Positions 8,624 to 27,567 of a stretch of DNA of 37,045 bases are shown here, piece after piece. The stretch's first letter is position 1. Each line of letters begins with the position of its first letter. Both the position numbers and the translations under genes were made by a program. The notes beneath the pieces are model-generated. The model had not been told where the DNA came from and did no database searches. It saw nothing but the letters and a program-made list of their open reading frames with translations. Source of the DNA: an uncultured Alphaproteobacteria bacterium (GTDB lineage: Bacteria > Pseudomonadota > Alphaproteobacteria > UBA3830); NCBI GenBank assembly GCA_905233185.1, contig CAJODB010000011.1:12441-49485 (forward strand). Direction: 5' to 3'.

Positions 8624-8861
8624 TACGCACCTCTTACACTTTATACTTCTAACACAGCAACAAACGCACATATAAACGACATGCTGTGTAGTAGGATAAA
8701 TTGATAATGGTTAACGAATAGTTTACAGATTAACTTTAATTAAAAGAATTTTTTTGACGAAATCACTTATTTCAGATTGTTTTAAATCTATGAAAGAAAA
8801 GAAGCTTTTTGCATTTTCTAATATGTTTTTTACAGCAGGGAATCCTTTGCCTCATTCTATC

Positions 8862-8930: not shown

Positions 8931-8963
8931 AATTGATAGTTCATTAATCGTATGGTGATTTTT

Positions 8964-10142
8964 ATGCGTATTTCAGGCTGTTCTGCATTATTAGCTGTTT
9001 CGGTTTCTGTTCTTTCATTAACATTGATCACAGCTTGCAAAGAAAAAAAACAATCACAGCAAGCTCCTGCTCCTTTAGTTGGCATCATTAAGGCTGAAAA
9101 AAAGGATGTTCCATTCCAAATAGAGGTTCCTGCGAAAATTACAGGTTCTTTGGAGATTCAAGTTCGTGCGCAAGTCAGTGGCATCTTAAAATCACGAACA
9201 TTTAATGAAGGGCAATATGTGAAGCAAGGCGAAAAGCTGTTTGAGATAGATCCTGAACAGTATGAAGCTGCTCTTACACGCGCGAGAGGAGCCCTGGCAC
9301 AGGCAGAATCGGAGGTTCGTCGCACTACCCGTGATTATGAACGCATGAAAAAACTGCATAAAGCAGGCGCAATTAGTCAAAAAGATCATGACGATTCATT
9401 ATCTGCATATGAGCGTGCACAGGCAAATCTGAAAGTTGCTGAGGGTTCAGTAAGAGAAGCCGAAATAAATCTCGGATATACAGAAGTTAAAGCGCCTATA
9501 TCAGGTATTGTAAGAAAAGAAGCTCAATCAGTCGGAAATTTGGTAACCGCAAATGCGGAATCAAGTTTGTTAACTTCAATGGTACAAATATGCCCTCTTC
9601 ACGCGGTATTTTCTCTCCCGGGATCCATATGGAATGCTCTTGCAAAAGGGTCTTTATCAGGAAAAGTTCAGCTGCCTAAATTTGATAAGTGCAAAATCGA
9701 AGTTATTATGTCGGATGGTACGAAATATCCGAAGACTGGAAAAATAATCTTCATAGACAGTACAGAAGACCACTTAACATCCAGTGTGTCAGTTAAAGCA
9801 GAAATTCCAAGTGATGAGCAACAACGGATTTTGCTTCCCGGACAGTTCGTGCGCGTAAAATTGGTTGGTGCGGAATATAATGACGCTATCGTTGTTCCTG
9901 CTTCCGCGCTTATTTCAACATCTCTTGGACACGTAGTTTATGTTGTTAAAGAAGATAAAACTGTCGAAGTTCGTCCTGTAAAAGCTGAGCTAGTTGAAAA
10001 CAATGGAATCGTCAATGAAGGCCTAAAAGAAGGAGAAATCGTAATTTTTGAGGGAGTTTCAAAGGCACGACCAGGAGAAAAGGTTAATGGCGTTGAAAAA
10101 AGTATTTCGCAAGAGCAGCAAGAAAAGGAAGCTCAGAAATAA
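8964..10142 (+). CDS. RND efflux periplasmic adaptor lipoprotein (AcrA/MexA family)
   Basis: 392 residues from the ATG at 8964, which has GGTGA five bases upstream. An ATG at 8952 in the same frame has no ribosome site. The N-terminus is a lipoprotein signal ending in LITAC (Cys 25), so the mature protein should be lipidated and anchored in the membrane. The order is that of membrane-fusion proteins: a first lipoyl half ('VRAQVSGILKSRTFNEGQYVKQGEKLFEIDP'), a coiled-coil hairpin ('ALAQAESEVRRTTRDYERMKKLHKAGAISQKDHDD...'), a second lipoyl half ('GYTEVKAPISGIVRKEAQSVGNLV'), then beta-barrel and membrane-proximal domains. It links the RND pump encoded 39 bases downstream to the outer-membrane channel encoded third in the operon. 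Transported substrates cannot be predicted. Confidence 0.92.
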   Translation: MRISGCSALLAVSVSVLSLTLITACKEKKQSQQAPAPLVGIIKAEKKDVPFQIEVPAKITGSLEIQVRAQVSGILKSRTFNEGQYVKQGEKLFEIDPEQYEAALTRARGALAQAESEVRRTTRDYERMKKLHKAGAISQKDHDDSLSAYERAQANLKVAEGSVREAEINLGYTEVKAPISGIVRKEAQSVGNLVTANAESSLLTSMVQICPLHAVFSLPGSIWNALAKGSLSGKVQLPKFDKCKIEVIMSDGTKYPKTGKIIFIDSTEDHLTSSVSVKAEIPSDEQQRILLPGQFVRVKLVGAEYNDAIVVPASALISTSLGHVVYVVKEDKTVEVRPVKAELVENNGIVNEGLKEGEIVIFEGVSKARPGEKVNGVEKSISQEQQEKEAQK

Positions 10143-10181
10143 CAGCATTTGATAAATATAAAATAAAGGAAGGGTCCGAAA

Positions 10182-13100
10182 ATGTTTTCTCGTTTCTTTA
10201 TAGATAGACCAATTTTTGCTTCGGTTGTTTCTTTGGTAATAGTAATCGCAGGATTGGTTTCTATATTTAACCTTCCTGTGGCTCAGTATCCTGATCTTAC
10301 GCCTCCATCTGTCTATGTTATGGCAAATTATCCGGGAGCCAGTGCGGAAGTTTTGTCAGAAACCGTGCAAGCGCCTCTTGAACAAGCGATAAATGGCGTT
10401 GAAGATATGATTTATATGAACTCTGTCGCATCAAATGACGGAAGCTCTTCAACTGCAGTATTTTTTAAGGTTGGTACAGATCCTCAAGAAGCAATGGTCA
10501 ACGTAAATAACCGCGTTCAGATGGTTTTAAATACCCTTCCTGAAGATGTGAGAAGGCAAGGTGTTACAGTTCGCAAAAGATCGTCATCAATTTTGCAAGT
10601 TATCGCACTTTATTCGGAAGATCCTCGCTACAATTCGACCTATCTGGGAAATTATGCTCTGCTTAACATTGTAGATGAGCTAAAAAGACTAGATGGCGTA
10701 GGAGATGTCGTAATTATTGGCAGTAATGACTACTCAATGCGTGTGTGGCTGAAGCCTGATAAACTTGCGAAACTTGGCATCAGTACGAGCGAAGTCGCTG
10801 CAGCTATTTCATCGCAGAATTTACAACGTGCTGCAGGAGGAATCGGGAAAAGGCCTGTTGATTTGAAGGTCGATCGTAACTATATGATTGTGGCTCAAGG
10901 ACGCTATTCCACAGTAGAGCAGTTCGAAAATATCATACTGAGAGCAAATTCAGATGGTACAGCATTGCGTCTTAAAGATGTCGCAGATATAGAACTTGGA
11001 GCACAAAGCTATGATGTCATAGCAAGAAATAAAAACTTTGAGGCTGTTCCTATACTTATTTCGCTTTCTCCCGGAGCAAATGCTTTGGCAACAGCTAATC
11101 GAGTTACAGCAAAACTTAATAAAATGGCTGAAGCTTTTCCGAAAGGGATTAAGTACACCATAACATTTGAGACAAGTCGATTTGTTCAAAATTCCATCAA
11201 TGAGGTTATAAAAACTCTTGTCGAGGCGTTCGTGCTTGTGTTTTTGGTGGTTCTTTTGTTCTTGAAAAATCTCGGAGCGACACTTATTCCGTGTCTCGCT
11301 GTTCCTGTATCAATTATTGGCGCATTTGCAGGCATGATGGTTTTTGGGTTCTCAATTAATACACTTACTTTGTTCGGATTGGTTCTTGCAATCGGAATTG
11401 TCGTCGATGACGCCATTATTGTTATTGAAAATGTCGAACGAATAATGCGAACAGAGAAACTGGCAGCACGAGAAGCAACTATAAAAGCTATGGATGAGGT
11501 TTCAGGAGCAATTGTCGCAATTGTTTTGGTTCTATGCGCAGTTTTTATACCTGTTTCGTTCATGGGAGGTCTTGCAGGAACCATGTATAAGCAATTCGCA
11601 ATCACAATTGCTGTTTCCGTTACGATTTCGGGTGTATGTGCACTGACTTTGACACCGGCTTTGTGCGCGATTTTCCTAGATAATGAATCATCTGTTGCCA
11701 ACAAAATGAGTAACAGCAACTTTTTTGCCTCTTTCGATCGTTGGTTTGAGTGGCTAACTAACAAATACACATCAACGGTTAAGTTCTTTTTGAAAAATGC
11801 GAAGACAGCCTTCATATCAATGGGCGTTATCTTTGCGCTGACATATGCGCTGTTTATGTCTACTCCAAGCAGTCTCGTTCCTGATGAAGATCAAGGCGTG
11901 TTTATGGCAACTGTTGTACTTGATCCGGGAGCTTCTTTAGATAGAACTCACAAAATTGTCGCAAAATTTTCTGAAAACATTTTAAAAGACTCAACAATTG
12001 AGGGATCTGTGTATGTAGCAGGCTATAATATGCTTAGCAACTCTACAGCAACAAATGCTGCGTCAATGTTTTTTATTCTTAAAGATTGGAGCGAAAGAGG
12101 TAAAGATCAAACGGCGCAAGCTCTCGTAAGAAAGGCCTTTGGTATCGGCGCTGGTATAGCCGATGGACGAGCAATCGCATTTTGCCCTCCTCCAATTGTC
12201 GGTATGAGTACTACAGGTGGTTTTGAGGGGTATATCCAGCAAACTGGAAATATGGACAGCAAAGCTCTGGAAGCTAAAGTAAATGAGATCGTTGCAGAGG
12301 CAGCAAAATGTCCTGAATTAAGTGGTGTTACATCAACGTTTAACTCCAGTACACCGCAACTAAATATGGAAGTAGATGACTTGAAAGCTCTATCTATGAA
12401 TGTTCCTATCAATGAGATATACAATACTGTTGCTTCAACATTCGGTTCCTATTATGTGAACGATTTTTCGCAATACGGTCGCGGATTTAAAGTTATGATG
12501 CAAGCTAAAGGAGAGTACCGCGCATATCCCGACCAAATAAAGGAAATATACGTACGTTCGACAAGTGGATCTATGATTCCTCTTTCCTCATTCGTAAAAC
12601 TTACACCAGGAGTTGGTCCTGATATTCTAGAGCGTTTCAACGTATTTCCGGCAGCAAAAATCATGGGAAATCCAGCTCCTGGATATACATCGGGACAAGC
12701 GCTTGCGGCGGTAGAAAAATTAGCTAAACGCATTCTTGGTGATGGATACCAAATGGCATGGGCCGGCTCTTCATATCAGGAAAAAGAAGCAGGGGGCAGC
12801 GCTGGTATAGCTCTTTCTCTTGGTTTGATAATCGTATTCTTGATTTTAGCGGCATTGTATGAACGATGGACGTTACCATTTGCGGTTATATTTGCTGTGC
12901 CTTTCGGAATGTTTGGAGCTGTTGTCTCAGTGATTTTGAGGGGGCTAAGCAACGACATTTATTTCCAAATCGCTCTTATTACTTTGGTAGGATTATCCGC
13001 CAAAAACGCAATTCTGATCGTTGAGTTCGCTGTAATGTTACGGAAAGAGGGGATGTCATTGGTAGACGCTGCAATACAAGCTGCGCATTTGCGATTCCGT

Positions 13101-13322
13101 CCTATTATTATGACTTCTCTTGCTTTTATATTGGGTTGCTTACCTTTGGCGATAAGTTCAGGAGCAGGACACGCAAGCAGAAATTCGCTCGGAACGGGAG
13201 TTGTCGGCGGAATGATCGGAGCTACAGCACTTGCGCCGTTATTCATTCCTTTGATGTATGTATTAATAACTATGATAAGCGAGATGTTCAGAAATAAAAG
13301 AAGGAGTAAAAAATATGCTTAA
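10182..13322 (+). CDS. RND efflux pump, HAE-1 family (AcrB/MexB-like)
   Basis: 1046 residues, the normal length of a hydrophobe/amphiphile RND pump. It exports drugs or other amphiphiles using the proton gradient. The N-terminus 'MFSRFFIDRPIFASV...LPVAQYPDLTPPSV' is diagnostic. The two adjacent aspartates of transmembrane helix 4 are present in GIVVDDAIIVIENVER (D409, D410), and the proton-relay lysine is present in 'VGLSAKNAILIVEFA' near the C-terminus. The 12-helix, two-periplasmic-loop layout is apparent from hydrophobic blocks at about 10-28, 340-500, 540-560 and 870-1035. A good ribosome site (AAGGAAGG) precedes the ATG. The stop overlaps the next gene's start by 8 bases. Confidence 0.95.
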   Translation: MFSRFFIDRPIFASVVSLVIVIAGLVSIFNLPVAQYPDLTPPSVYVMANYPGASAEVLSETVQAPLEQAINGVEDMIYMNSVASNDGSSSTAVFFKVGTDPQEAMVNVNNRVQMVLNTLPEDVRRQGVTVRKRSSSILQVIALYSEDPRYNSTYLGNYALLNIVDELKRLDGVGDVVIIGSNDYSMRVWLKPDKLAKLGISTSEVAAAISSQNLQRAAGGIGKRPVDLKVDRNYMIVAQGRYSTVEQFENIILRANSDGTALRLKDVADIELGAQSYDVIARNKNFEAVPILISLSPGANALATANRVTAKLNKMAEAFPKGIKYTITFETSRFVQNSINEVIKTLVEAFVLVFLVVLLFLKNLGATLIPCLAVPVSIIGAFAGMMVFGFSINTLTLFGLVLAIGIVVDDAIIVIENVERIMRTEKLAAREATIKAMDEVSGAIVAIVLVLCAVFIPVSFMGGLAGTMYKQFAITIAVSVTISGVCALTLTPALCAIFLDNESSVANKMSNSNFFASFDRWFEWLTNKYTSTVKFFLKNAKTAFISMGVIFALTYALFMSTPSSLVPDEDQGVFMATVVLDPGASLDRTHKIVAKFSENILKDSTIEGSVYVAGYNMLSNSTATNAASMFFILKDWSERGKDQTAQALVRKAFGIGAGIADGRAIAFCPPPIVGMSTTGGFEGYIQQTGNMDSKALEAKVNEIVAEAAKCPELSGVTSTFNSSTPQLNMEVDDLKALSMNVPINEIYNTVASTFGSYYVNDFSQYGRGFKVMMQAKGEYRAYPDQIKEIYVRSTSGSMIPLSSFVKLTPGVGPDILERFNVFPAAKIMGNPAPGYTSGQALAAVEKLAKRILGDGYQMAWAGSSYQEKEAGGSAGIALSLGLIIVFLILAALYERWTLPFAVIFAVPFGMFGAVVSVILRGLSNDIYFQIALITLVGLSAKNAILIVEFAVMLRKEGMSLVDAAIQAAHLRFRPIIMTSLAFILGCLPLAISSGAGHASRNSLGTGVVGGMIGATALAPLFIPLMYVLITMISEMFRNKRRSKKYA

Positions 13323-14760
13323 AAAGAATGTTATTGTTAGAGGAATTTTATCTTCATATGTCCTTATTTTTGTAGCAGGTTGCGAAGTTGGTCCTGATTA
13401 TGAACGTCCGAAATTGAACCTTCCGCAAACACAAGCAAAAGCAGATGAAGAAGTAGCTGAATTTTTGGTAGAAGGCTGGTGGAGAATCTTCAAAGACAAA
13501 ACATTGGATGATCTTGAAACGCAAGCCTTAAAAAACAACGCTGATATAAAGCAGGCGATTGCAAATATCGAAGAAGCTGCGGCTATGGCTGATGTTTCTA
13601 TTGCCGATTATTTCCCAACAATTGGATTAAATGCAAGTGGAACGCAAGCAGGATTGTCAAGCGCGGCAGCTGCATCTCAGGGGGGCAAATACAGGCGTGC
13701 AATCGATTATACGGGCACTATCGGAGCGTCTTATGAGCTCGATTTCTTTGGTAAATACAGAAGAGCAAACGAGGCAGCTCGAGCCAATTTGTTGGCATCA
13801 CATGCAGCAAAAGAAGTCGTATTATTGACCGTTACATCCGAAGTAGCAAAAACCTATTTTGCATTACGTGCTCTTGATTCAAAATTAGCTATAGCAAGAC
13901 GCACCTTTAAAACACGCCAAGAAAGCTATTTGGTCTATAAATCGAGATTTGAAAATGGCTATTGCACAGAATTCGATTACTTAAGGATGAAAGCTGAAAT
14001 GGATTCGGTGAAATCTACAGTTTTGGATTTGGAATCTGCAGCAGCAAAGATCGAAAACGCTTTGAGTGTTTTGATTGGAACGAGTCCAAAGAATATGATT
14101 GCCAGAAAAACTTCGAGAGCATCTACACTTGAAAGCCTAAAAATCCCGACAACTATTCCAAGTGGACTACCATCGAACTTATTGGCAAGACGTCCTGATG
14201 TTGTTGCAGCAGAAGGGCAGCTAATAGCAGCAAACGCAAATATCGGTCAGTCTATTGCTGCGAATTTTCCATCATTTTCACTAACAGGAGCATTTGGATT
14301 TGAAGGATCAACGCTTGGACATGTATTTACGCCTTCAACAGAGATGTGGAATTTGAATCAAACAATATCTTTGCCACTTTTTGCAGGTGGGCGTATTGAA
14401 GGAATGACCGAAGTTGCAAAAGCAAGGTACAAAAAAGCACTTGCGATGTATGAAAAAACTGTTCTAACCGCTTTTAGAGAGACTCTTGACGCTCTTATAA
14501 CTGCGAAAAAGAGCAGTGAAATTGTTGCATCGAGAAGCCGACAAGTTGAATCTCTTAAGAAGAGCTACCATATCGCTTTGACTCAAAAAGAATCCGGTTT
14601 AATCGGATTGTTAGATTTGCTGGATGTTGAAAGAGGACTTCTTTCTACTGAAATGGAACTAACAAATGCTTTGCAAAATCAATTGAACGCAATCGTTGAT
14701 CTGTGTAAATCTCTCGGAGGTGGTTGGAATATTGAAAAACCTTGTAAGAAGACAAAGTAA
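13315..14760 (+). CDS. RND efflux outer-membrane factor lipoprotein (OprM/NodT family)
   Basis: 481 residues. It forms the outer-membrane channel of the tripartite pump. A lipoprotein signal ends in VAGC (Cys 23), immediately followed by 'EVGPDYERP', the hallmark start of mature NodT/OprM proteins. Two outer-membrane-efflux repeats follow: 'WWRIFKDKTLDDLETQALKNNADIKQA', then the 'YELDFFGKYRRANEAA' turn, and in the second half 'LLARRPDVVAAEGQLIAANANIG' and 'ISLPLFAGGRIEG'. The start overlaps the pump gene by 8 bases with AAGGAG upstream, so the three genes form one operon. Confidence 0.95.
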   Translation: MLKKNVIVRGILSSYVLIFVAGCEVGPDYERPKLNLPQTQAKADEEVAEFLVEGWWRIFKDKTLDDLETQALKNNADIKQAIANIEEAAAMADVSIADYFPTIGLNASGTQAGLSSAAAASQGGKYRRAIDYTGTIGASYELDFFGKYRRANEAARANLLASHAAKEVVLLTVTSEVAKTYFALRALDSKLAIARRTFKTRQESYLVYKSRFENGYCTEFDYLRMKAEMDSVKSTVLDLESAAAKIENALSVLIGTSPKNMIARKTSRASTLESLKIPTTIPSGLPSNLLARRPDVVAAEGQLIAANANIGQSIAANFPSFSLTGAFGFEGSTLGHVFTPSTEMWNLNQTISLPLFAGGRIEGMTEVAKARYKKALAMYEKTVLTAFRETLDALITAKKSSEIVASRSRQVESLKKSYHIALTQKESGLIGLLDLLDVERGLLSTEMELTNALQNQLNAIVDLCKSLGGGWNIEKPCKKTK

Positions 14761-14873: not shown

Positions 14874-15632
14874 TTAAACAGCTGTTCTTTGCTGCATTCT
14901 CGGATATTCTTTTAAGCCACTGTTATTTTCAATTTTGTTATTCGCAGAATTATCTTCTGGAACATCTTTCAAGGTATATCCTCTGCCCCAAATTGTTTCG
15001 ATATAGCATTCTCCATCCATAGCATCCATAAGTTTCTTTCTTAGTTTGCAAACGAAAACATCTATGATTTTCAGTTCAGGCTCATCAATTCCTCCATATA
15101 AATGATTGAGGAACATATCTTTAGTCAATGTTGCGCCACGTCTTAAGCAAAGCAACTCCAGTATTGCGTATTCTTTTCCTGTCAGATGTAGTACTTTTCC
15201 ATCGATTTCAACTCTTCTGCTTTGCAAATTGATCGACATTCTTCCGATTTTTATGGTTGATTCGGAATGTCCTTTTGATCGTCTTATGACAGCTTGAATT
15301 CTTGCTACAAGTTCTTTGGCATCGAATGGCTTCGTTATGTAATCATCTGCACCGATATCTAAGCAATTGACTTTATCTTTTGATTCAGAAAGTCCTGATA
15401 GTACAATAACTGGTGTTACAACATTTGCCGCGCGCAATTTTTTGATAACTTCCATTCCATCAATATCAGGAAGCATTAAATCCAATATAATTCCATCGTA
15501 ATCGTAGATTTTTCCTACTTCAAGACCATATTGACCGAAGCTCGTTGCATCAACAACTAATCCCTCTTTTCTCAATAACGCCTCTACGCTTTTTGCGGTC
15601 GGAGTATCATCTTCTATTAACAGAACTCTCAT
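14874..15632 (-). CDS. ctrA: Cell-cycle response regulator CtrA (OmpR/PhoB family)
   Basis: 252 residues from the ATG at 15632, which begins the conserved 'MRVLLIEDD' and has AGAGGGA upstream. An in-frame ATG 24 bases earlier adds residues outside the family's start. The receiver domain has D8/D9, the phospho-acceptor D51 ('IILDLMLPD') and the 'TKPF' lysine. The DNA-binding winged helix contains the near-invariant CtrA stretch 'HLTGKEYAILELL', 'TLTKDMFLNHLYGG' and 'DEPELKIIDVFVCKLRKKL'. CtrA is the master cell-cycle and envelope regulator of Alphaproteobacteria. The C-terminus is extended and Asn/Gln-rich and ends in TAV. In Caulobacter the CtrA C-terminal hydrophobic residues are a ClpXP signal; whether TAV does the same is open. 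A CtrA-type box lies over its own promoter. Confidence 0.96.
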   Translation of the reverse strand: MRVLLIEDDTPTAKSVEALLRKEGLVVDATSFGQYGLEVGKIYDYDGIILDLMLPDIDGMEVIKKLRAANVVTPVIVLSGLSESKDKVNCLDIGADDYITKPFDAKELVARIQAVIRRSKGHSESTIKIGRMSINLQSRRVEIDGKVLHLTGKEYAILELLCLRRGATLTKDMFLNHLYGGIDEPELKIIDVFVCKLRKKLMDAMDGECYIETIWGRGYTLKDVPEDNSANNKIENNSGLKEYPRMQQRTAV

Positions 15633-15715
15633 ACTTTCCCTCTTACTTAACTTCAAAAACTACTAAAAAAATAGCTATAACTATCTTTATATATTATCAC
15701 CTTATTGGGAGTTTA

Positions 15716-16000: not shown

Positions 16001-16483
16001 ATGAGTACAGGATTTAGATACGATGAATTAGTGCAAAAAGCACTTATTTCTGTTGTGCGCGATGTACTTAAGGACGTTTCTAAAAATGGCTTACCAGGCA
16101 ATCACCATTTTTATATTCGTTTCCGCACGGATCATCCAAAAACAAAGGTTCCAAAATTCCTCAAAGAACGTCATCCTGAAGAAGTTATGATCGTTATACA
16201 ATATCAATATTGGAATCTCGATGTTACAGACACATATTTTTCAGTAGATTTAAGTTTCAGTGGTGTTCAAGAAAATTTAAAAATTCCTTATGCTGCGCTT
16301 ACGGCTTTTGTAGATCCTTCAGTGAAGTTTGCTTTGCAATTTACACCAACTTTCGGAGATGACGATGGCAACGATGATGGCACACGCATGTCGTTCAAAG
16401 AAAAATCAGATGGTGACGATGATAGCAAAAAATCATCTGATGATGGAAAAATTATAAGCTTCGATAGCTTCAGAAAGAAATAA
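16001..16483 (+). CDS. sspB: ClpXP adaptor protein SspB (alphaproteobacterial type)
   Basis: 160 residues. SspB tethers ssrA-tagged and some other substrates to the ClpXP protease. The substrate-binding domain spans about 1-115 with 'HHFYIRFRTDHPKTKVPKFLKERHPEEVMIVIQYQYWNL' and 'SFSGVQENLKIPYAALTAFVDPSVKFALQF'. A long acidic, Asp/Ser-rich linker follows. The C-terminus IISFDSFRKK is the ClpX-binding peptide, nearly the same as in Caulobacter-type SspB. GGAG stands about ten bases before the ATG. It lies downstream of tRNA-His and 24 bases before the metalloprotease gene. Confidence 0.93.
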   Translation: MSTGFRYDELVQKALISVVRDVLKDVSKNGLPGNHHFYIRFRTDHPKTKVPKFLKERHPEEVMIVIQYQYWNLDVTDTYFSVDLSFSGVQENLKIPYAALTAFVDPSVKFALQFTPTFGDDDGNDDGTRMSFKEKSDGDDDSKKSSDDGKIISFDSFRKK

Positions 16484-16507: not shown

Positions 16508-17146
16508 ATGCATGATTTTATAGACACTATTGTCTTTAACATTTTTCCTCTCTTCTTCGCGATTGTTTTTCATGAAATTTCGCACGGGTTAGTTGCATAT
16601 TCTTTAGGAGACGATACCGCAAAAAATGCCGGACGTTTTAAACTGCATACACATTTTGATCTCTGGGGATCTTTTCTCATTCCTCTTGGATTGTATTTGA
16701 TGCATTCGCCATTTTTAATTGGATATGCGAAACCTGTTCCCGTAGATCCCCGAAAATTCAAGGACCCAATAACTGATATGGCGCTTGTAGCTATAGCAGG
16801 TCCGCTTTATAATCTACTGATTGCGATTATTTGTGCGTTTGGTTTGCAAGACTCAGATGGTTTTGTGTTTAGGATGCTGTTAAGCTTCACAATGATCAAT
16901 TTCGGTCTTTTCTTCTTCAATCTTATACCAATTCCACCGCTTGATGGCAGCAGAATAATTGCGGCAATAATTCCAAGAAGGTTTGTTGAGTCGTATTATA
17001 AATTAGAACCTTTCGGATTTTTTATAATAATAGGATTGGAAATGCTTAGTGAACCATTATCACAGTTAGTCGGGCATAGAGTAGGATTGTTTTATACGTT
17101 CATAGAAAAACCCATAAGAGGTATATTAACCATGTTGCTTTCATGA
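16508..17146 (+). CDS. Site-2-type membrane metalloprotease (peptidase M50)
   Basis: 212 residues, a minimal S2P-like zinc protease embedded in the inner membrane. The zinc-binding HEISH motif is at residues 22-26 in the first membrane helix (HEISHGLVAYSLGD). 'AIAGPLYNLLIAI' corresponds to the conserved GPxxN helix, and 'NLIPIPPLDGSRI' carries the third zinc ligand (Asp). It lacks PDZ and CBS domains, as in the short Rip3/YwhC-like subgroup. No clear ribosome site precedes the ATG, so expression may depend on upstream sspB. Its stop overlaps the HMG-CoA reductase start as ATGA, so it is translationally coupled to the mevalonate genes. The substrate is unknown. Confidence 0.88.
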   Translation: MHDFIDTIVFNIFPLFFAIVFHEISHGLVAYSLGDDTAKNAGRFKLHTHFDLWGSFLIPLGLYLMHSPFLIGYAKPVPVDPRKFKDPITDMALVAIAGPLYNLLIAIICAFGLQDSDGFVFRMLLSFTMINFGLFFFNLIPIPPLDGSRIIAAIIPRRFVESYYKLEPFGFFIIIGLEMLSEPLSQLVGHRVGLFYTFIEKPIRGILTMLLS

Positions 17147-18219
17147 CTTTTAATAAGGATAATGACGGCATGAAGTTTTCTGATACAAAAATTCAAACAA
17201 TAATTCCGACAAAAATAATCGGGCCGATAAATTTTGTTTATAATGGCATGAAAGAATCTGTTTCTGTGCCAATGGCGACATTAGAAACTCCCCTTTGGTA
17301 TTCTGCGAAACGCGGTGCCTTTGTATCGCAAAAATCGGACGGAATAAGGGTATTTGTTTTCGACGATTTCATGACTAGATCAATAATTCTTGAAGCAAAT
17401 GACGTGGAGGGCATGTTAAAATGCAAAGAGTGGATTTTCGCAAACCAAAAAAGCATTGAAAATATCGTTAATAAATCCAGCAGATTCGCGAAATTGAAAA
17501 ATATTCATATAGAAAATGTTGCGAAGTTACTTTATATACGTTTTTCCATAGAGACTGGAAATGCTTCAGGCCACAATATGGTTACAAAGGCTGCAGATGA
17601 TATCGCGAATTTTATAACATCCCATTGTGAAGGCGTAAATTATATCTCAGTCTCAGGAAATTATTGCGTAGATAAAAAAGTTTCCGCTATTAATGGCATT
17701 TTAGGACGTGGGAAACAAGTTTCGGCTGAAATAATCGTAAAAAAAGATGTCTGTGAATCGATTTTAAGAACATCTCCATCGAAAATCTGCGAATTGAACA
17801 CAAAGAAAAATCTTATCGGAAGTATTTTAGCTGGATCTGTGCGTAGTGCGAATGCTCATTATGCGAATACAGTCCTTGCGGTTTTCTTAGCGACAGGACA
17901 AGATGCAGCGAATATCATCGAAGCTTCACAGGGAATTACTTTTGCGGAAACGCATGGCGAGGATTTATATTTTTCCGTTAATATGCCAAATATAATTGTA
18001 GGAACTTTAGGAAATGGGAAAAATCTTGATTTTGCGATCAAAAATTTAGAACTAATGAAGTGCTATCCAAATGACGCTAACTCATCAAAAAGATTGGCCG
18101 CGATAATTGCTGCTGCGACATTATGTTCGGAACTGTCTTTGATAGCTGCTCAAACAAACCAAGGTGAATTGATGGAATCACATATTGCTTTAGAACGGGA
18201 CAATAACAAAAATGTCTAG
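17143..18219 (+). CDS. 3-hydroxy-3-methylglutaryl-CoA reductase, class I-like catalytic domain
   Basis: 358 residues, soluble. It reduces HMG-CoA to mevalonate with NAD(P)H, the second committed step of the mevalonate route to isoprenoids. Catalytic residues align with the eukaryote/archaeal-type (class I) enzyme: Glu48 in VPMATLETPLW, Lys in DKK (177-179), the 'GRGKQVSAE' block, Asp254 in TGQDAAN, and the C-terminal His347 in ESHIALER. 'NASGHNM' (140-146) replaces the usual DAMGMNM cofactor-loop sequence, and 'GTLGNGKNL' replaces GTVGGGTNL, so the cofactor site has diverged. The ATG overlaps the previous stop (ATGA); an internal Met 27 bases on is a less likely start. The gene overlaps HMG-CoA synthase by 8 bases. 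I call it class I-like from motifs; a tree would settle it. Confidence 0.88.
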   Translation: MTFNKDNDGMKFSDTKIQTIIPTKIIGPINFVYNGMKESVSVPMATLETPLWYSAKRGAFVSQKSDGIRVFVFDDFMTRSIILEANDVEGMLKCKEWIFANQKSIENIVNKSSRFAKLKNIHIENVAKLLYIRFSIETGNASGHNMVTKAADDIANFITSHCEGVNYISVSGNYCVDKKVSAINGILGRGKQVSAEIIVKKDVCESILRTSPSKICELNTKKNLIGSILAGSVRSANAHYANTVLAVFLATGQDAANIIEASQGITFAETHGEDLYFSVNMPNIIVGTLGNGKNLDFAIKNLELMKCYPNDANSSKRLAAIIAAATLCSELSLIAAQTNQGELMESHIALERDNNKNV

Positions 18220-19375
18220 CATCAATAAAAATAATGTCGGAATTGATGTTATTGCTTTTTCTACATCTGATTATTTCCTTTCGCTAAAAACTTTAGCTGA
18301 ACATAGAGACGTTGATTACCGTAAATATTACGAAGGCATAGGTCAGGAAAGAATGTCAATTTTCCCCCCTAACGAAGATATAGTTACGATCGCGATAGAT
18401 GCGGCACAAAAAGTTCTTTCAAAGATCGATAATAAAAATGACATTGATTTACTGATTTTTGCAACAGAATCTTCCTTCGATTTATCAAAATCCGCAGGAA
18501 TATACGTTCACCATTTTTTGGGATTAAAACCAAGCTGTCGTGTTTTTGATATGAAACAAGCCTGCTACTCTGCTACAGCCGCTTTACAGATGGCAAAAAG
18601 TTTTGTGGAAAGTAATTCAGCTTCGAAAGCGTTAGTCATTGGATCGGATATTGTAAAATACTCGCCAAATACTTCAGGAGAACCAACTCAAGGAGGTGCT
18701 GCCGTAGCTATGCTCGTTTCAGAAAATCCTCGACTGGCATATATAGAGCCTTTTTCCGGAATCTATACGACAGATATCGCTGATTTTTGGAGACCTGCAG
18801 CAGCAACTGAGGCGATGTTCGATGGCAGACTCTCTGCACACAATTATTTGCGATCTTTAGGATGTGCTCTTGACAATTATTTGGAGCAATCAAGCCTAAA
18901 TTTTGAGGATATTAACTATACCTGTTTTCATGCTCCGTTCAATAAAATGGCGATCAAAGCGGTGCGGCAATTTTTCCCTGAAAGAGACATAAAAGATGCC
19001 CTAATTTACAATGCGTTGATCGGGAATAGTTGTTCAGCATCTCTGTACATATCGCTTATTTCGCTAATCGATAATTGCAAACGAAATTTGGCAGGCAAGA
19101 GAATCGGAATGTATAGTTATGGATCTGGTAGTGTCGCAGAATACTATAGTTTGGTTATTTCTGATCGATATAAAAACACTCTCTTTTCGGATAGCAATAA
19201 GGAAAATCTTGCTAACAGAATAGAAATTTCCTTCGATGAATACGAGAAACTAAGCACAACCGCTGAGATATTCAACTATACCAGCAAAGAAGGCGGAAAA
19301 AGGCTTTACAGAAACATTGGATCAGTCTTTCTTGCGGAAATAAAAGACGGATATAGGATTTATGCAGAAGCTTGA
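18212..19375 (+). CDS. mvaS: Hydroxymethylglutaryl-CoA synthase
   Basis: 387 residues, a thiolase-fold enzyme that condenses acetyl-CoA with acetoacetyl-CoA to HMG-CoA. Catalytic residues are visible: Glu86 in ATESSFD, the nucleophile Cys118 in DMKQACYSATAALQMA, and His240 in TCFHAPFNKM, matching the Glu/Cys/His triad of bacterial MvaS. 'GIGQERMSIFPPNEDIVTIAIDAA' and 'GSYGSGSVAEYYS'-like C-terminal blocks (MYSYGSGSVAEYYS) also fit. It overlaps the reductase gene by 8 bases, so the two act together to make mevalonate. The kinases and decarboxylase needed to reach IPP are not in the window. Confidence 0.93.
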   Translation: MSSINKNNVGIDVIAFSTSDYFLSLKTLAEHRDVDYRKYYEGIGQERMSIFPPNEDIVTIAIDAAQKVLSKIDNKNDIDLLIFATESSFDLSKSAGIYVHHFLGLKPSCRVFDMKQACYSATAALQMAKSFVESNSASKALVIGSDIVKYSPNTSGEPTQGGAAVAMLVSENPRLAYIEPFSGIYTTDIADFWRPAAATEAMFDGRLSAHNYLRSLGCALDNYLEQSSLNFEDINYTCFHAPFNKMAIKAVRQFFPERDIKDALIYNALIGNSCSASLYISLISLIDNCKRNLAGKRIGMYSYGSGSVAEYYSLVISDRYKNTLFSDSNKENLANRIEISFDEYEKLSTTAEIFNYTSKEGGKRLYRNIGSVFLAEIKDGYRIYAEA

Positions 19376-20011: not shown

Positions 20012-21007
20012 ATGCTTAATAATAAAACTATTTTGATAACAGGCGGTACGGGGTCTTTCGGTAAGAAATTTGCAAAAACAGTACTGGAAAGATATCCGAA
20101 TTTGAAAAAAGTGATTGTTTATTCTCGTGACGAATATAAACAGTTTTTGATGTCGAATATGCCAGAATTTAAAAATAATCTTGTCGCGGATAAAATGCGT
20201 TATTTTATAGGAGATGTTCGTGATAAAGAGCGTCTTTATCGGGCGTTTGATGGCGTTGATATTGTTATACATGCAGCTGCTCTTAAGCAAGTTCCGGCAT
20301 GCGAATATAATCCTTTTGAAGCCATAAAAACAAATGTTTTTGGAGCACAGAATATAATAAATGCAGCAATAGATAGAGGTGTAAAAAAGGTTGTTGCACT
20401 ATCAACAGATAAAGCTTGTGCTCCCGTAAATTTATACGGCGCAACAAAATTGTGTTCTGATAAATTATTTATTGCAGGAAATTCATATAGTGGGACACGA
20501 GAAACTCTGTTTTCTGTTGTTAGATATGGAAATGTCGCCGGATCGCGTGGATCAGTAATTCCATTTTTCAAAAGACTAGTAGAAGAAGGAGTAAAAGAAC
20601 TTCCGATAACTGATTTCAATATGACTCGTTTTTGGCTGAAATTAGAGCAGGCAGTTGAGATGGTACTTAGTGCGATCGAACGTATGCGGGGGGGGGAGTT
20701 GTACGTCCGAAAGATTCCGTCCATGAAAATCACAGATCTGGCAGAGGCAATTGCTCCGGGAATTAAGTTGAAAGAAGTAGGCATTCGTCCTGGTGAAAAA
20801 ATTCATGAGCAAATGATAACTTGTGAAGATGCTCGCAATACTTTGGAGTTTGATAATTATTTTGTAATATTGCCGGAAGTTTGTAATGCCGATTCTATGA
20901 AACTGCAACAAGGAAAACATGTTGCAACCGATTTTGAATATAATTCCGGAAAAAATACTTGGTGGCTTTCTGTCGATGAAATGCGAGAATTAATTAGGGA
21001 AATTTAA
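20012..21007 (+). CDS. pseB: UDP-N-acetylglucosamine 4,6-dehydratase (PseB/FlaA1-like)
   Basis: 331 residues, a short-chain dehydrogenase that converts UDP-GlcNAc to a 4-keto-6-deoxy hexosamine, the first step to pseudaminic acid and related sugars. It has GGTGSFG (11-17) for NADP, 'HAAALKQVPACEYNPFEAIKTNVFG', and the catalytic STDKA...Y142-x3-K146 set (D133, K134) typical of inverting PseB rather than RmlB. A run of nine G (20688-20696) encodes part of MRGGE near residues 226-229. Adding or removing one G stops translation within about 25 codons, removing the C-terminal third. No strong ribosome site precedes the ATG. The usual next enzymes PseC, PseH and PseG are absent nearby. A CapE-like role in L-FucNAc synthesis is the alternative. 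Confidence 0.85.
   Translation: MLNNKTILITGGTGSFGKKFAKTVLERYPNLKKVIVYSRDEYKQFLMSNMPEFKNNLVADKMRYFIGDVRDKERLYRAFDGVDIVIHAAALKQVPACEYNPFEAIKTNVFGAQNIINAAIDRGVKKVVALSTDKACAPVNLYGATKLCSDKLFIAGNSYSGTRETLFSVVRYGNVAGSRGSVIPFFKRLVEEGVKELPITDFNMTRFWLKLEQAVEMVLSAIERMRGGELYVRKIPSMKITDLAEAIAPGIKLKEVGIRPGEKIHEQMITCEDARNTLEFDNYFVILPEVCNADSMKLQQGKHVATDFEYNSGKNTWWLSVDEMRELIREI
20688..20696 (+). repeat. Poly-G(9) tract inside pseB
   Basis: Nine consecutive G in coding sequence of an AT-rich gene (codons CGG GGG GGG GAG). Reading ten G gives a TAA about 25 codons on; eight G gives a TGA within about 12 codons. The tract is therefore a candidate slipped-strand ON/OFF switch, with the sequenced state being ON. 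Confidence 0.75.
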
Positions 21008-21149
21008 GATGAAAATTTCTGTTGTGACTGAATGAAATTAAGGATAGATTTTACCATCAAAGGATGATCCAGATGGTTTTATCTTTTAGATAAAGTGAAA
21101 AATGATATTGGTTTAATTCCTGAGGTGGTATTTATAATTTGGGGTAGTC
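21008..21149. other. Short spacer, possibly a decayed gene
   Basis: It begins with ATG and eight codons (MKISVVTE) then a stop, which recalls the start of UDP-GlcNAc 2-epimerases (MKIxVVTGTRPE). What follows is broken in all frames. I cannot identify it with any confidence. A GGGG stands five bases before the GTG start of the next gene. Confidence 0.25.
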
Positions 21150-22064
21150 GTGGGTGACGTAAATAATGTAGCTCTTGTAGGATCAACAGGTCTCTTGGGA
21201 AAAGCAATTTACGAGATGCTAAAATCAAATGGCTATGAGGTCGTGGGCGTTGCACGAAAGAATGCCGACTTTAATTTTGATATTAAAAATGATGATGCTC
21301 TTAGAGATTTTCTTTTATCGAATAAATTTTGCGTTGTAATCAATGCAGTTGCAATTGTAAACCACGAAATTTGTGATAATAATCCAGCGTTAGCGTATCT
21401 TGTTAATTCAAGGCCGAGTGCTATTTTTGCTCAGCTATCAAAAGAATTGGATTTTAAATACGTCTATATTTCAACTGATGGTTATTTCCACGGAGATAAA
21501 AATTTTAAGCATTGTGAAGATGCTAATGTATCTTTTTTTAATGAATATGTAAGAACCAAGTTTGCGGGTGAACAATTCGCGCTTACAAATCCAAATTCGC
21601 TTGTTGTTAGAACGAATATAGTAGGTTTCAAAGGAGCAACATCTCCAACGTTTTTTGAGTGGGCGCTAAATGCTGTTAAAAATCAAGAAAATATAACGTT
21701 ATTTGAAGATTATTTTACATCGAGTATTTCAACAGCACAATTTTCAAGTGCATTATTAGATCTAATTAATAAAGATGCAAAAGGTTTGTATAATGTTGCA
21801 AGTAGTGAAGTGTCATCTAAGAAGCAATTTATAGAAAAAATGGCAGAAATTTTTAATTTAGAATTAATTAATGCAAAAATAGGAAGCGTTTCATCACTTA
21901 ATTCAAAGAGAGCAGATAGCCTTGGACTTGATGTTTCAAAAGCTGAAAAGCTTTTGGGATATAAAATGCCTGGTTTAAGAGAAGTTTTGGAAAAATTGAA
22001 AGAGGAATATTATGAGTTACAAAAATGCAATATTTGTAGGAAAAAGAAGAATAGCAATCGATGA
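21150..22064 (+). CDS. RmlD-like NAD(P)-dependent sugar-nucleotide reductase/epimerase
   Basis: 304 residues with GTG start. An extended SDR: the dinucleotide loop GSTGLLGKAI is at 11-20, 'VINAVAIVNHEICDNNPALAYLVNS' corresponds to the RmlD 'NAAAYTxVDxAE...A..VN' block, and 'YISTDGYFHG' and the catalytic Y133-x3-K137 (NEYVRTKFAGE) are intact. It probably reduces a keto-sugar nucleotide in the glycan pathway; the substrate is not predictable. The C-terminal 17 codons overlap the start of the NeuB-family gene by 53 bases, unusually long, so coupling is tight and the true ancestral stop may have been lost. It could belong to the same biosynthetic block as PseB or to that of NeuB downstream. Confidence 0.75.
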   Translation: MGDVNNVALVGSTGLLGKAIYEMLKSNGYEVVGVARKNADFNFDIKNDDALRDFLLSNKFCVVINAVAIVNHEICDNNPALAYLVNSRPSAIFAQLSKELDFKYVYISTDGYFHGDKNFKHCEDANVSFFNEYVRTKFAGEQFALTNPNSLVVRTNIVGFKGATSPTFFEWALNAVKNQENITLFEDYFTSSISTAQFSSALLDLINKDAKGLYNVASSEVSSKKQFIEKMAEIFNLELINAKIGSVSSLNSKRADSLGLDVSKAEKLLGYKMPGLREVLEKLKEEYYELQKCNICRKKKNSNR

Positions 22065-23091
22065 ACCAACATACTTTATTGCTGATATTGCAGCGAATCA
22101 TGATGGTAATTTAGAAAGGGCGAAAAAATTAATATATCTAGCAAAAGAGGCTGGTGCAGATTGTGCGAAATTTCAACATTTTTTAGCAGATAAAATAGTA
22201 AGTGATTACGGCTTTAAACACTTAAAAACTGGACAATCGCATCAAGCAAATTGGAAAAAATCAGTTTGGGAAACATATGATGAATATCACTGTAAGAGGG
22301 AATGGACTGCTGAACTTGTAAAAACCTGTAAAGATGCAGAAATTGATTTTATGACTACACCTTACGATTTTGATGCAATCAATGAAGTCGATGATTATGT
22401 AAACGCCTATAAAATTGGCTCAGGCGATATTACATGGCTTGATTTTATAAAAAAAATTACAAGTTTAAATAAACCTTACTTTTTAGCCTGCGGAGCTTCG
22501 TCCTTGGAAGATGTTAAAAGGGCAGTCGATTTTGCAACAGAAGTAAATCCACAGATCATTTTGATGCAATGCAATACAAACTACACAGCGTCTCTAGATA
22601 ATTATAAGTACATAAATTTGAACGTACTCAAAACTTTTGCAAAAATGTACCCTGAAATGATTTTGGGATTATCAGATCATACATTTGGTTGTGCAACCGT
22701 TTTAGGGGCAGTTACGCTTGGAGCGAGGGTTATAGAAAAACATTTTACGGATGATAATCAGAGAGAAGGTCCCGATCATAAATTTGCAATGAATCCAACA
22801 ACATGGCGTGATATGGTAGATAGAACGCGCGAGCTTGAACTCGCTCTAGGTGACGGTATAAAAAAGGTAGAAGATAACGAAAAGGATACGGTAATTGTTC
22901 AAAGACGCTCTATTTGTTTAAAGCGTGACATGAAAAAGGGAGAAATATTAACTAATGCTGATTTAGACATCTTAAGACCCTCTCCTGAAGGGGCATTTTT
23001 GCCCTTTGAAATCAATGATGTTATCGGTAAATCTTTAAACGTCGATAAGGTTAAAGGAGATAGTTTATATAAAGGCGAAATTAATGCATAA
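22012..23091 (+). CDS. NeuB-family nonulosonic acid synthase with SAF domain
   Basis: 359 residues. These enzymes condense phosphoenolpyruvate with a six-carbon sugar to make a nine-carbon sialic-acid-like sugar. The TIM-barrel part has 'ADIAANHDG' (24-32), 'AGADCAKFQ' (47-55), metal-site histidines H223 in GLSDHT and H244 in IEKHFT, and 'GPDHKFAMNP'. A C-terminal SAF (antifreeze-like) domain spans about 295-355 ('RRSICLKRDMKKGEILTNADLDILRP...IGKSL'). The ATG has a perfect AGAGG upstream, which fixes the start inside the previous gene. It is distinct from the decayed PseI at 26324, so it may handle a different sugar (legionaminate-like or novel). It overlaps the next gene by 8 bases. Confidence 0.88.
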   Translation: MSYKNAIFVGKRRIAIDEPTYFIADIAANHDGNLERAKKLIYLAKEAGADCAKFQHFLADKIVSDYGFKHLKTGQSHQANWKKSVWETYDEYHCKREWTAELVKTCKDAEIDFMTTPYDFDAINEVDDYVNAYKIGSGDITWLDFIKKITSLNKPYFLACGASSLEDVKRAVDFATEVNPQIILMQCNTNYTASLDNYKYINLNVLKTFAKMYPEMILGLSDHTFGCATVLGAVTLGARVIEKHFTDDNQREGPDHKFAMNPTTWRDMVDRTRELELALGDGIKKVEDNEKDTVIVQRRSICLKRDMKKGEILTNADLDILRPSPEGAFLPFEINDVIGKSLNVDKVKGDSLYKGEINA

Positions 23092-23857
23092 ACTGGGACT
23101 TAAACTTTGGTCCGTAAATACGGATAATTACCTTAGAGAGGCTAAAAAATTATACAATCGAGGAATATATGACTATATAGAACTTTACATTGTTCCGAAT
23201 AATGAGGATAAATTATCCACATGGAAAGAACTAAATATCCCCTACATAATTCATGCGCCTCATTTTCTTCACAAAATGAATTTATCATTAAAAGAATATG
23301 AAGAAAATAATATAAAGATATATAGAGAGGTAAAATTATATGCCGATATCTTAAAAGCGCCAAAAATCATTTTCCATTCAGGAACCGACGGTGACTATAA
23401 AGAAACCGCAAGACAGCTAAAAAATTTAAATGAACCTCGTGCATTAATTGAAAACAAACCATATAAACTTATGCCGGCAATTAAAGGAAAGGCATATGTT
23501 GGTACTAAATTTGAAGAAATAGAATATATAATAAATGAAGTGGGATGCGGTTTTTGCTTTGATATTTGCCATGCAATTTGTGCGGCTAATTCTCATGGTC
23601 TTGATATATATAAAAGTTTGGAAAAATGGGTAACTCTAAATCCCAATTTGATTCACCTTTCAGATAAAGATATCTCAACAGAAATGGATTTTCATTTAAA
23701 TTTTGGCAATGGCACAATAGACTTTGGAAAAGTGTTGGGTATATTACCTAATAATGTTCCTATAACAATAGAAACACCTAAAAAATCAAAAAAAAACATA
23801 GATGACTTTATTGAAGATGTTAATTATATAAGAGCAATACAGGGGGGCATAGAATGA
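23084..23857 (+). CDS. TIM-barrel (xylose isomerase/AP-endonuclease-2-like) sugar enzyme
   Basis: 257 residues, with a metal-binding TIM barrel. Candidate ligands occur in the expected order: H57/H60 (IIHAPH), H98 (IIFHSG), E123 (LIENKP), D160 and H163 (DICHA), H191 (IHLSDKD), H204 (MDFHLNFGNGTIDFG) and E230 (ITIETP). The family includes sugar-phosphate isomerases, epimerases and endonuclease IV. Here the setting between a NeuB-type synthase and a PIG-L deacetylase argues for an isomerase or epimerase acting on a nonulosonate precursor. It overlaps both neighbours (8 bases before, ATGA after), so it is an obligate part of this unit. The exact reaction is unknown to me. Confidence 0.72.
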   Translation: MHKLGLKLWSVNTDNYLREAKKLYNRGIYDYIELYIVPNNEDKLSTWKELNIPYIIHAPHFLHKMNLSLKEYEENNIKIYREVKLYADILKAPKIIFHSGTDGDYKETARQLKNLNEPRALIENKPYKLMPAIKGKAYVGTKFEEIEYIINEVGCGFCFDICHAICAANSHGLDIYKSLEKWVTLNPNLIHLSDKDISTEMDFHLNFGNGTIDFGKVLGILPNNVPITIETPKKSKKNIDDFIEDVNYIRAIQGGIE

Positions 23858-24549
23858 CCAACATTCTTGTTGTAGCAGCGCATCAAGATGATGATATATT
23901 AGGATGCGGTGCAACTCTTGCAAAAGAAATTGAGAATGGAAATAAAGTTAGAATTATATACATAGCAGAAGGAACTTCCGCTCGCTATAATCTTCCGCAT
24001 TTAACCAATGAACAAAAACGGCTAATGGATATTGATTTGCAAAAGCGTAAATCATATACTCTAGCATCATTAAAAATATTAGGGTGTAAGAGTTATGAAT
24101 TTTATAATCTACCGTGTGGAAGGATTGACTGCGAACCTATTATTGAAGTGGGTAAGATAATAGAAAACGAAATAAAATTTTATGATCCTGATATAATTTT
24201 CACTCACTCGGATACTGATGTAAATAATGACCACAGACTTATTCATCAAGCTGTTTTACAGGCTACTCGTCCTGGAGCAAACAACAAAGTAAAAAAAATA
24301 TTGTGTTTCGAAATATTGTCTTCAACGGAATGGCGTTTTAATAAAAGTTTTTCACCCAATGTTTTCATAGGAATTGAAGAAAAGTATCTAAAAATAAAAA
24401 TTGCATCTTTAATGGAATATAAGTCGGAAGTGAAAAAATATCCTTATCCTCGTTCTGAAAGAGGAATCATAACTCTTGCTCAATATAGGGGAATGCAGTG
24501 TGCAAATGAGTACGCAGAGGCATTTGAGCTTTTGAGGGAGATTGTTTGA
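23854..24549 (+). CDS. PIG-L family N-acetyl-sugar deacetylase
   Basis: 231 residues. The zinc-binding motif is AAHQDDDILGCGA (H10, D12, D13; family consensus AHPDDE, with Asp for the final Glu), and the second part is THSDTDVNNDHRLIHQA (H118, D126, H127). PIG-L enzymes remove N-acetyl groups from GlcNAc-type sugars. Next to a formyltransferase-like gene, this suggests replacing N-acetyl with another acyl group. The start (ATGA) overlaps the TIM-barrel gene and the stop overlaps the next start (TGATG). Confidence 0.86.
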   Translation: MTNILVVAAHQDDDILGCGATLAKEIENGNKVRIIYIAEGTSARYNLPHLTNEQKRLMDIDLQKRKSYTLASLKILGCKSYEFYNLPCGRIDCEPIIEVGKIIENEIKFYDPDIIFTHSDTDVNNDHRLIHQAVLQATRPGANNKVKKILCFEILSSTEWRFNKSFSPNVFIGIEEKYLKIKIASLMEYKSEVKKYPYPRSERGIITLAQYRGMQCANEYAEAFELLREIV

Positions 24550-25196
24550 TGCGAATAGCTTGTGTATCGTATAGAGATTGGGCTTTGAAGATATACGATG
24601 AAATATCAAAAGATCCTGAACAAGAATTTTTAATAATCCGCTCACATAAAGAATATTCCGATGAAAAAATAATAAATTTTAATCCTGATTATATCTTATT
24701 CTATGGTTGGAGCTGGATAATAAAAGGAGATATAATAAAAAATTATAAATGCATTATGCTTCATCCTGCGCCTTTACCAAAATATAGAGGTGGATCTCCT
24801 ATACAAAACCAGATAATAAGAGCTGAAGTCTCATCTGCTGTTACTTTATTTGTTATGGATGAAGGAATAGATACGGGAGACATTATTGCCCAAGAAGAAA
24901 TTTCTTTAGAAGGACATTTATCTGATATTTTAGATAGAATTACCGAAACTGGCATAAAACTCACTAAAAAATTATTATTAGGTGATTTTGTTCTGAAGAA
25001 ACAAGATAATTCAAAAGCAACAACTTATAAAAGACTTACAGAAAAAGATAATGAAATTACACTTGATGAAATAAAGAATATGCCTGCTGAGTATTTATAC
25101 AATAAGATAAGAATGCTTGAATATCCTTATCCTAACGCATATATAAGAACAGCAGATGGCAAAAAATTGAGAATCAAAATGGCTGAAATTGATTAA
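24549..25196 (+). CDS. Formyltransferase-family protein (N-acyl transfer to an amino sugar, probable)
   Basis: 215 residues from ATG 24549. It has the folate-dependent formyltransferase fold with 'LHPAPLPKYRGGSPIQNQI', 'AVTLFVMDEGIDTGDIIAQ' (catalytic Asp) and a C-terminal tail 'LEYPYPNAYIRTADGKKLRI' like the OB-type end of Fmt and ArnA. In classical enzymes the catalytic trio is Asn-x-His...Asp; here the Asn position is Met (IMLHPAP), while His and Asp remain. It is therefore either a distinct subfamily or changed in mechanism. Preceded by a deacetylase, the likely role is N-formylation of a sugar amine made by that enzyme; this is inference. TGATG overlap couples it to the PIG-L gene. Confidence 0.75.
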   Translation: MRIACVSYRDWALKIYDEISKDPEQEFLIIRSHKEYSDEKIINFNPDYILFYGWSWIIKGDIIKNYKCIMLHPAPLPKYRGGSPIQNQIIRAEVSSAVTLFVMDEGIDTGDIIAQEEISLEGHLSDILDRITETGIKLTKKLLLGDFVLKKQDNSKATTYKRLTEKDNEITLDEIKNMPAEYLYNKIRMLEYPYPNAYIRTADGKKLRIKMAEID

Positions 25197-25207
25197 GGAA
25201 ACTTAAG

Positions 25208-26116
25208 ATGAATTTGAAAACACTTTATAATGATGGGGTTAATATTACAGAATATTTTCGTTCAAAAAATAATGTTCAAGAAAATAAGCAAGAGGCGATT
25301 TTGATATCATATGATTTACAGGCTGGTTCATATATAAAACATCTACCCGAAAAAGGCATGTACCATATTGATGGTAATCCGAAAGAAATGATCTCTCATC
25401 AATATCTTTGTAAATTCGTAAAATACCTTGGTAATGAAATATCTCAATTTGAACATTTATCCATATTGGAAGCTGGAGTTGGAGAAGCAACAACCCTTGC
25501 TTATTTAATTGAATATATGGAAGGAAGCGGCAGTAAGTTTTATGGTTTTGATATAGCTCCGTCTAGGATTTTGTATGGTAAAGAATTTTTACGCTCAAAA
25601 AAACGAGAAGCAGAGTTATTTGTTGGAAATATGTTGTCAATTCCTTGTCAAGATAATTCGTTTGATATTGTTTACACTGTACATGCAATAGAACCAAACA
25701 CAAGTGATGCTAAAAATATTATCAAAGAATTATATCGTGTAACAAAAAAGTATCTAATTTTGATTGAACCAAGTTTTGAGCTTGGTAATGAAGAGACAAA
25801 AGCTAATATCAACAAACATGCATATATTAAAAGTCTAAAGCAACAGGTAGATGAGTTAAAATATGAAGTTATAAAATACGAACTTTTTCCTATCGGCACA
25901 TTTTCAAATCAACCAGCTATTATGATTATAAAAAAGGATTCTAATTGTGATGATGCCACCAGTTATTGTTGTCCCTCATGTCATTCAAAAATAATTTTTG
26001 ACAAGCGGGGGGGGTATTGCATAAATTGTTCTATTTTTTATCCAATAATTAGAGAAATTCCCATCTTAACAAGAGAAGCAGGCATATTTTTTTCTCATTA
26101 CCTTGATAAATTTTGA
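25208..26116 (+). CDS. SAM-dependent methyltransferase with C-terminal zinc-ribbon-like tail and poly-G tract
   Basis: 302 residues. Class I methyltransferase fold: motif I 'ILEAGVGEATTL' (86-97), 'FYGFDIAPSRI' for the SAM ribose, and 'CQDNSFDIVYTVHAIEP' for the post-motif strand. The last 50 residues carry C255-x2-C258 and C271-x2-C274 and 'YPIIREIPIL', like Trm112-type zinc tails. Eight G (26007-26014) encode the RGG between the two cysteine pairs; one base more or less ends the protein within about 15 or 4 codons, removing the second CxxC. Substrate unknown; probably O- or N-methylation of the glycan sugar. GGAA precedes the ATG, 11 bases after the formyltransferase stop. Confidence 0.78.
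   Translation: MNLKTLYNDGVNITEYFRSKNNVQENKQEAILISYDLQAGSYIKHLPEKGMYHIDGNPKEMISHQYLCKFVKYLGNEISQFEHLSILEAGVGEATTLAYLIEYMEGSGSKFYGFDIAPSRILYGKEFLRSKKREAELFVGNMLSIPCQDNSFDIVYTVHAIEPNTSDAKNIIKELYRVTKKYLILIEPSFELGNEETKANINKHAYIKSLKQQVDELKYEVIKYELFPIGTFSNQPAIMIIKKDSNCDDATSYCCPSCHSKIIFDKRGGYCINCSIFYPIIREIPILTREAGIFFSHYLDKF
26007..26014 (+). repeat. Poly-G(8) tract in a methyltransferase C-terminus
   Basis: Eight consecutive G (CGG GGG GGG) between the two CxxC pairs. With nine G the frame stops at TAG about 15 codons later; with seven G at TAA within four codons. A candidate phase-variation tract. Confidence 0.7.
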
Positions 26117-26323
26117 AGGATAACTTAAATTACAAAAGTATCTTAGTTATAGTCATCAAAATATCGTGAATGATAATAAAGTTTTGCACTCAGATTATTT
26201 TACCCAAGCTTCAAAATCAGAAGCAGTTGTAATAAAAAATGCTTCTCATGCGAGCAGCCCAGAATATAAGAGGACAAAAGTTAGTTTATGTGCTTATTGT
26301 GACATGATGATTTTTTTTCGTTT
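26117..26323. other. Decayed sequence between the methyltransferase and the pseI remnant
   Basis: About 200 bases with no start-to-stop gene. One frame (about 26170-26330) gives some 50 residues beginning VNDNKVLHSDYFTQASKSEAVVIKN, with no family I recognise. It probably belongs to a lost gene of the glycan locus. Confidence 0.4.
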
Positions 26324-26653: not shown

Positions 26654-26659
26654 CAAATA

Positions 26660-27559: not shown

Positions 27560-27567
27560 GAGAGAAT

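Follow-up and report, generated by a model that had tools for sequence, protein, structure and literature searches.

The uncultured alphaproteobacterial order UBA3830 very probably replaced its ancestral MEP route to isoprenoid precursors, the one that Alphaproteobacteria normally use, with a mevalonate route that arrived as a single operon, broke up later and was then lost again in several lineages. The starting point was a pair of overlapping genes, mvaA and mvaS, in a stretch of 37,045 nucleotides (the window) from a metagenomic draft genome of 1.30 Mb in 66 contigs (94% complete). A first-pass annotation of the window had read the pair as mevalonate entry enzymes with a class I-like reductase, gained horizontally where the MEP route was missing; this part of its interpretation stands, while a host-derived route and a remarkable cofactor loop do not. 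It did not see that the trait is order-wide, that the transfer is old, or that the route was lost again several times.

In the proposed scheme MvaS would convert acetoacetyl-CoA and acetyl-CoA to HMG-CoA, and MvaA would convert HMG-CoA to mevalonate. Two kinases, diphosphomevalonate decarboxylase (MVD) and a type 2 IPP isomerase (Idi2), all encoded on other contigs, would lead from mevalonate to IPP and DMAPP, from which UppS would supply the cell-wall lipid carriers.

The mvaA and mvaS genes

The two open reading frames overlap by 8 bases (Table 1). The mvaA protein matched PF00368 (E = 1.6e-84), TIGR00533, the model for class I (NADPH) HMG-CoA reductase (HMGR), with 310.8 bits (1.3e-92; below its cut-off of 441.8), and the solved class I reductases (1e-63). 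It lacks approximately 70 N-terminal residues of the TIGR00533 model, and none of the class II (NAD) HMGR models matched it at E <= 0.001. The true start of the gene is probably at 17170 (MKFSDT...), where the HMGRs of relatives begin in the alignment. The mvaS protein scored 405.5 bits with TIGR01835, above the equivalog cut-off of 360.35, and aligned over most of its length with the solved synthase 3v4n (4.6e-82). Alignment with solved structures placed the catalytic residues of the reductase, Glu in TLETPLW, Lys in DKK, Asp in GQDAAN and His in MESH, and the catalytic Cys of the synthase, so that the earlier remark that all of them are visible holds good. From these matches, mvaA and mvaS are predicted to encode HMG-CoA reductase and HMG-CoA synthase (HMGS).

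The cofactor loop of the reductase, NASGHNM in place of the DAMGMNM of eukaryotic and archaeal enzymes, had been singled out as an oddity. It proved to be ordinary: 62 of 66 HMGRs from outside the order carry DA[SA]GHNM, the change of Asp to Asn is the sole peculiarity of the window's family, and the notion that the loop marks an unusual use of cofactor was dropped. Both the short class I form and the GHN loop are standard across a wide bacterial subclade of HMGR; the window enzyme is best described as class I-type, not canonical class I, with the loop as a trait of that subclade. Lined up with the plant enzyme, its SSRFA segment contains the Ser-Arg known from the NADPH site in eukaryotic reductases.

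Table 1. Position of the window genes discussed and of the remaining mevalonate-route genes of the source genome
Feature	Position	Strand	Basis or remark
CtrA response regulator, alphaproteobacterial marker	14874..15656	-	NF045991, 361 bits (cut-off 350)
SspB-like protein, syntenic neighbour	16001..16483	+	PF04386, 3.2e-39; synteny
M50-family membrane peptidase, upstream neighbour of mvaA	16508..17146	+	PF02163; synteny in rumen clade
mvaA, predicted class I-type HMG-CoA reductase, short form	17143..18219	+	PF00368, TIGR00533, solved class I reductases
mvaS, predicted HMG-CoA synthase, bacterial type	18212..19375	+	TIGR01835, 3v4n
Mevalonate-kinase-like GHMP kinase	C2:87516		Same genome, other contig
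Second GHMP kinase, diverged	C5:1768-2535		Profile search, 4.8e-14
Diphosphomevalonate decarboxylase (MVD)	C3:59116		Same genome, other contig
Type 2 IPP isomerase (Idi2)	C7:48710		Same genome, other contig

The remaining genes of the route

The genome search that the first-pass annotation had proposed, for kinases, decarboxylase and isomerase, recovered all of them, one kinase by synteny and profile, and the single draft genome thus holds a complete set: HMGS, HMGR, two GHMP kinases, MVD and IPP isomerase. Since it encodes all the later steps, the suggestion that the pair might be feeding a host-derived route was abandoned. The mevalonate kinase (MVK) and MVD scored below their respective equivalog cut-offs, and no phosphomevalonate kinase (PMK) was found in the source genome with Pfam or NCBIfam models. 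A hole in the pathway of family f1 at this step, as read from PF00288 alone, was dropped when a profile built from clustered homologues of families f2 to f4 detected the kinase on contig C5. Its open reading frame of about 290 residues retains the GHMP motif GGFGASSA. In other families of the order a third GHMP kinase adjoins MVD; the diverged second kinase has this place in f3, f4 and genome G021, and in G021 its homologue lies directly upstream of MVD. Outside the order, the best matches to the profile are the second kinases of mevalonate operons; structure prediction for a same-family homologue (pLDDT 86) yielded a fold whose best solved match is the phosphomevalonate kinase of S. pneumoniae (1k47). 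Operon homology, the kinase tree and this fold suggest how the MVK and PMK roles would be divided between the C2 and C5 kinases, the second of them being an enzyme missed by standard annotation models. A further kinase, on contig C17 (L002), was rejected as mevalonate kinase; its nearest relative is the heptose-7-phosphate kinase HddA.

DXR had no match in the source genome and IspG none in any of the 50 genomes of the order; for IspG, 9 of 14 control genomes were positive. The absence of the MEP route, which had been surmised from the window, rests on these two markers, DXR in the source genome and IspG in the order. Apart from Rickettsia, the genomes of Rickettsiales and Holosporales known when PMC5615194 appeared are stated there to encode MEP enzymes.

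Distribution and loss within the order

HMGR was found in 34 of the 50 genomes, with all 11 genera represented; some of the 16 genomes without it are incomplete. Idi2 occurs in 37 and UppS in 46. The ATP/ADP translocase (NTT), a protein common in intracellular symbionts, is likewise present in 46, the source genome among them, and in none of the 14 controls. The order has been described from termites and ruminants, with NTT (PMC11257099, PMC7820578), and the genomes examined here fit that description. No match to Idi2 was found in the nearly complete genomes G007, G008, G021 and G003, in which the rest of the route is present. Genome G042 (96% complete) has the kinases, MVD and Idi2 without HMGR, reflecting either a gap or uptake of mevalonate.

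A search for HMGR across the class matched 21 of 385 genomes: four in the window's order, one below cut-off, 14 large genomes with a long reductase, and two small ones, from other families, with the short form. In the last two (L158 in G282, L159 in G177) the short class I HMGR adjoins HMGS, which makes it likely that the class has seen further acquisitions.

HMGR and kinases occur together in 34 genomes of the order, kinases alone in five, HMGR alone in none, and neither in 11 (Fisher p 1e-7, uncorrected for kinship; kinase hits were sorted by hand into mevalonate and heptose types). The 11 route-less genomes are spread over four groups (f4, g4, g5 and g6), all with route-bearing members too; provided that these groups are natural, the route was lost four times or more. 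Four of the 11 are 91–93% complete, and gaps in the assemblies are therefore a poor account of the joint disappearance of five or six dispersed genes. UppS is kept in 10 of the 11 and Idi2 in three. The retention of UppS indicates that precursors are probably imported, as in Rickettsia, presumably from the hosts. One weak hit of the kinase profile (G041:C51:7008-7232), in a genome that has lost the route, is interrupted by two in-frame stops and is a possible pseudogene remnant.

Origin of the genes

The nearest HMGRs outside the order are about 50–55% identical. They come from various bacteria, mostly gammaproteobacteria but also Lentisphaerae, Spirochaetia and other groups, which agrees with the horizontal gain proposed at the outset. 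Most of these relatives have the operon HMGR-(Idi2)-HMGS-GHMP-GHMP-MVD, and by comparison the window pair resembles the leading part of an operon that has come apart. The donor would be bacterial, probably of gammaproteobacterial type, and the operon would have arrived in the ancestor of the order, displaced the MEP route there and broken up later; several descendant lineages would then have lost the entire route, their isoprenoid precursors presumably being supplied by the hosts. The codon composition of the pair (GC3 0.32) equals that of the neighbouring genes, as does its GC content; the GC3 argues against a recent arrival. Within the window's family, a clade supported at 100/99 in the concatenated HMGR and HMGS tree, inheritance is vertical. 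The reductase of a MAG titled Rickettsia conorii (L052, DYTE01000003.1) groups with gammaproteobacterial and unnamed MAGs; the record is probably mislabelled.

Whether the families of the order gained their genes once, in a common ancestor, or separately and from different donors was weighed on several trees. A quick tree of HMGR alone scattered the four families, setting f3 beside a gammaproteobacterial MAG and f2 and f4 on separate long branches, and was first read as several acquisitions; between f3 and f1 the identity of MVD is no more than about 30% (f4, 49%), and gene clustering varies among the families. This reading was weakened by the concatenated tree, which unites f1, f3 and f4, if weakly (80/59), by an AU test that does not reject a single clade for the order (p 0.52), and by the kinase tree, where long branches meet but the first kinases of all four families form one clade (97), sister to the first kinase of the operons. 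The families also share the adjacency of HMGR and HMGS with no Idi between them. Separate gains are thus rather unlikely, though they deserve some weight, and the evidence leans towards a single old transfer without proving it.

Genomic context

The order SspB-M50 peptidase-HMGR is kept in rumen relatives, with CtrA added where the contig extends far enough, at 70–97% identity across separate rumen assemblies; synteny of the peptidase gene with mvaA was seen in L031/L035, L011/L037 and L019/L036, and the two genes are possibly co-transcribed. The syntenic records are titled Alphaproteobacteria or proteobacterium, which together with a CtrA above the curated cut-off points to an alphaproteobacterial origin of the window. 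The closest named relatives are rumen MAGs, namely RUG14145 (reductase 85% identical) and others of roe deer or red deer origin, together with MAGs that carry the label Holosporaceae, for the most part named with what we take to be termite sample codes.

Other parts of the window encode several recognizable systems. Type VI secretion genes for TssA-like (ImpA_N), TssM (IcmF), TssL (DotU) and TssK (VasE) proteins lie at 1102-8671 (-) and co-occur with NTT in this 1.3 Mb genome. An apparent tripartite RND efflux system follows at 8952-14760 (+); its adaptor and NodT-type outer membrane protein were identified by model match, with a pump-sized ORF of 1046 residues between the two genes. A nonulosonic-acid-type surface sugar cluster (20012-30268, +) includes PseB and PseF above cut-off, a NeuB/PseI-like protein, an RmlD-like protein, a PIG-L deacetylase, a formyltransferase, an aldo/keto reductase and a class III aminotransferase. 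No DegT-type PseC was found among its scanned genes, and the cluster is possibly an unusual pseudaminic-acid variant. A piece of an integrase lies at 36574-37008 (-), and the end of the window is the end of the contig.

Three further explanations were weighed. That the contig came from another organism of the metagenome is conceivable for a draft in this many pieces, but the presence of HMGR throughout so much of the order, the conserved CtrA-SspB-M50-HMGR context in independent assemblies, and the uniform GC and GC3 make contamination or a chimera highly improbable. Equally remote is the idea that the reductase is some other CoA-thioester enzyme: its TIGR00533 score does fall short of the curated threshold, yet a short N-terminus is typical of the HMGR subclade, all four catalytic residues are kept, the gene is paired with one for HMGS, and the similarity to solved HMGRs is strong. 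A partial salvage path on host mevalonate or IPP, resembling that of Rickettsia and leaving the window pair incidental, has somewhat more in its favour, namely the prevalence of NTT, the order members without an IPP route, and genome G042 with its kinases and no HMGR. It remains quite unlikely for the source genome, with its intact HMGS and HMGR and every later step, and suits only the route-less relatives. Replacement of the MEP route by one acquired operon is the explanation preferred here.

Comparison with known systems

An alphaproteobacterial endosymbiont with a mevalonate route has been described before. 'Candidatus Sarmatiella mevalonica' (Rickettsiales), an endosymbiont of Paramecium, has a full mevalonate set thought to be horizontally acquired (Castelli et al. 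2021, PMC11253213), and resembles the present order, as far as that account describes it, as a host-associated alphaproteobacterium with a complete set and presumed horizontal transfer. It is, however, one species of another order, whereas in UBA3830 most members have the route, IspG is absent throughout and loss is repeated. The operons of Oceanospirillaceae type (Neptuniibacter, Nitrincola) share the short class I HMGR with an A[S/A]GHNM loop, the same type of HMGS, two GHMP kinases, MVD and Idi2, but are compact, while the genes of the window's order are dispersed and its kinases fast-evolving. Coxiella burnetii and Legionella pneumophila, both intracellular, also have mevalonate genes in place of the MEP route (PMC9803151); they are Gammaproteobacteria. 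Rickettsia scavenges isoprenoids and has no mevalonate route whatsoever (PMC5615194, PMC6854040). The route-less members of the order resemble it in lacking both IspG and the mevalonate route, in sometimes keeping Idi and in carrying NTT, but differ in that sister genomes retain the route.

The papers searched for a mevalonate route in Holosporales, and for class I reductases of bacteria, had nothing on this order, and a review of Holosporales (PMC11909080) does not mention isoprenoids. The order-wide switch with repeated loss was not found in the openly licensed papers searched; within these it is new, its novelty being thus unproven.

The chances are about even that a protist- or gut-associated order exchanged the MEP route once for an acquired operon and that at least four of its lineages (in f4, g4, g5 and g6) later gave up the new route too and became dependent in the manner of Rickettsia. 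If so, metabolic rescue would have given way to reliance on host isoprenoids in several replicate cases. When host-associated Alphaproteobacteria lose the MEP route, acquisition of the mevalonate route can, it appears, rescue them on the scale of a whole order. Sister genomes that have kept or lost the route offer a test system for the import of isoprenoids from the host, and allow a prediction of which members would need an HMG-CoA reductase of their own and which would need that of the host.
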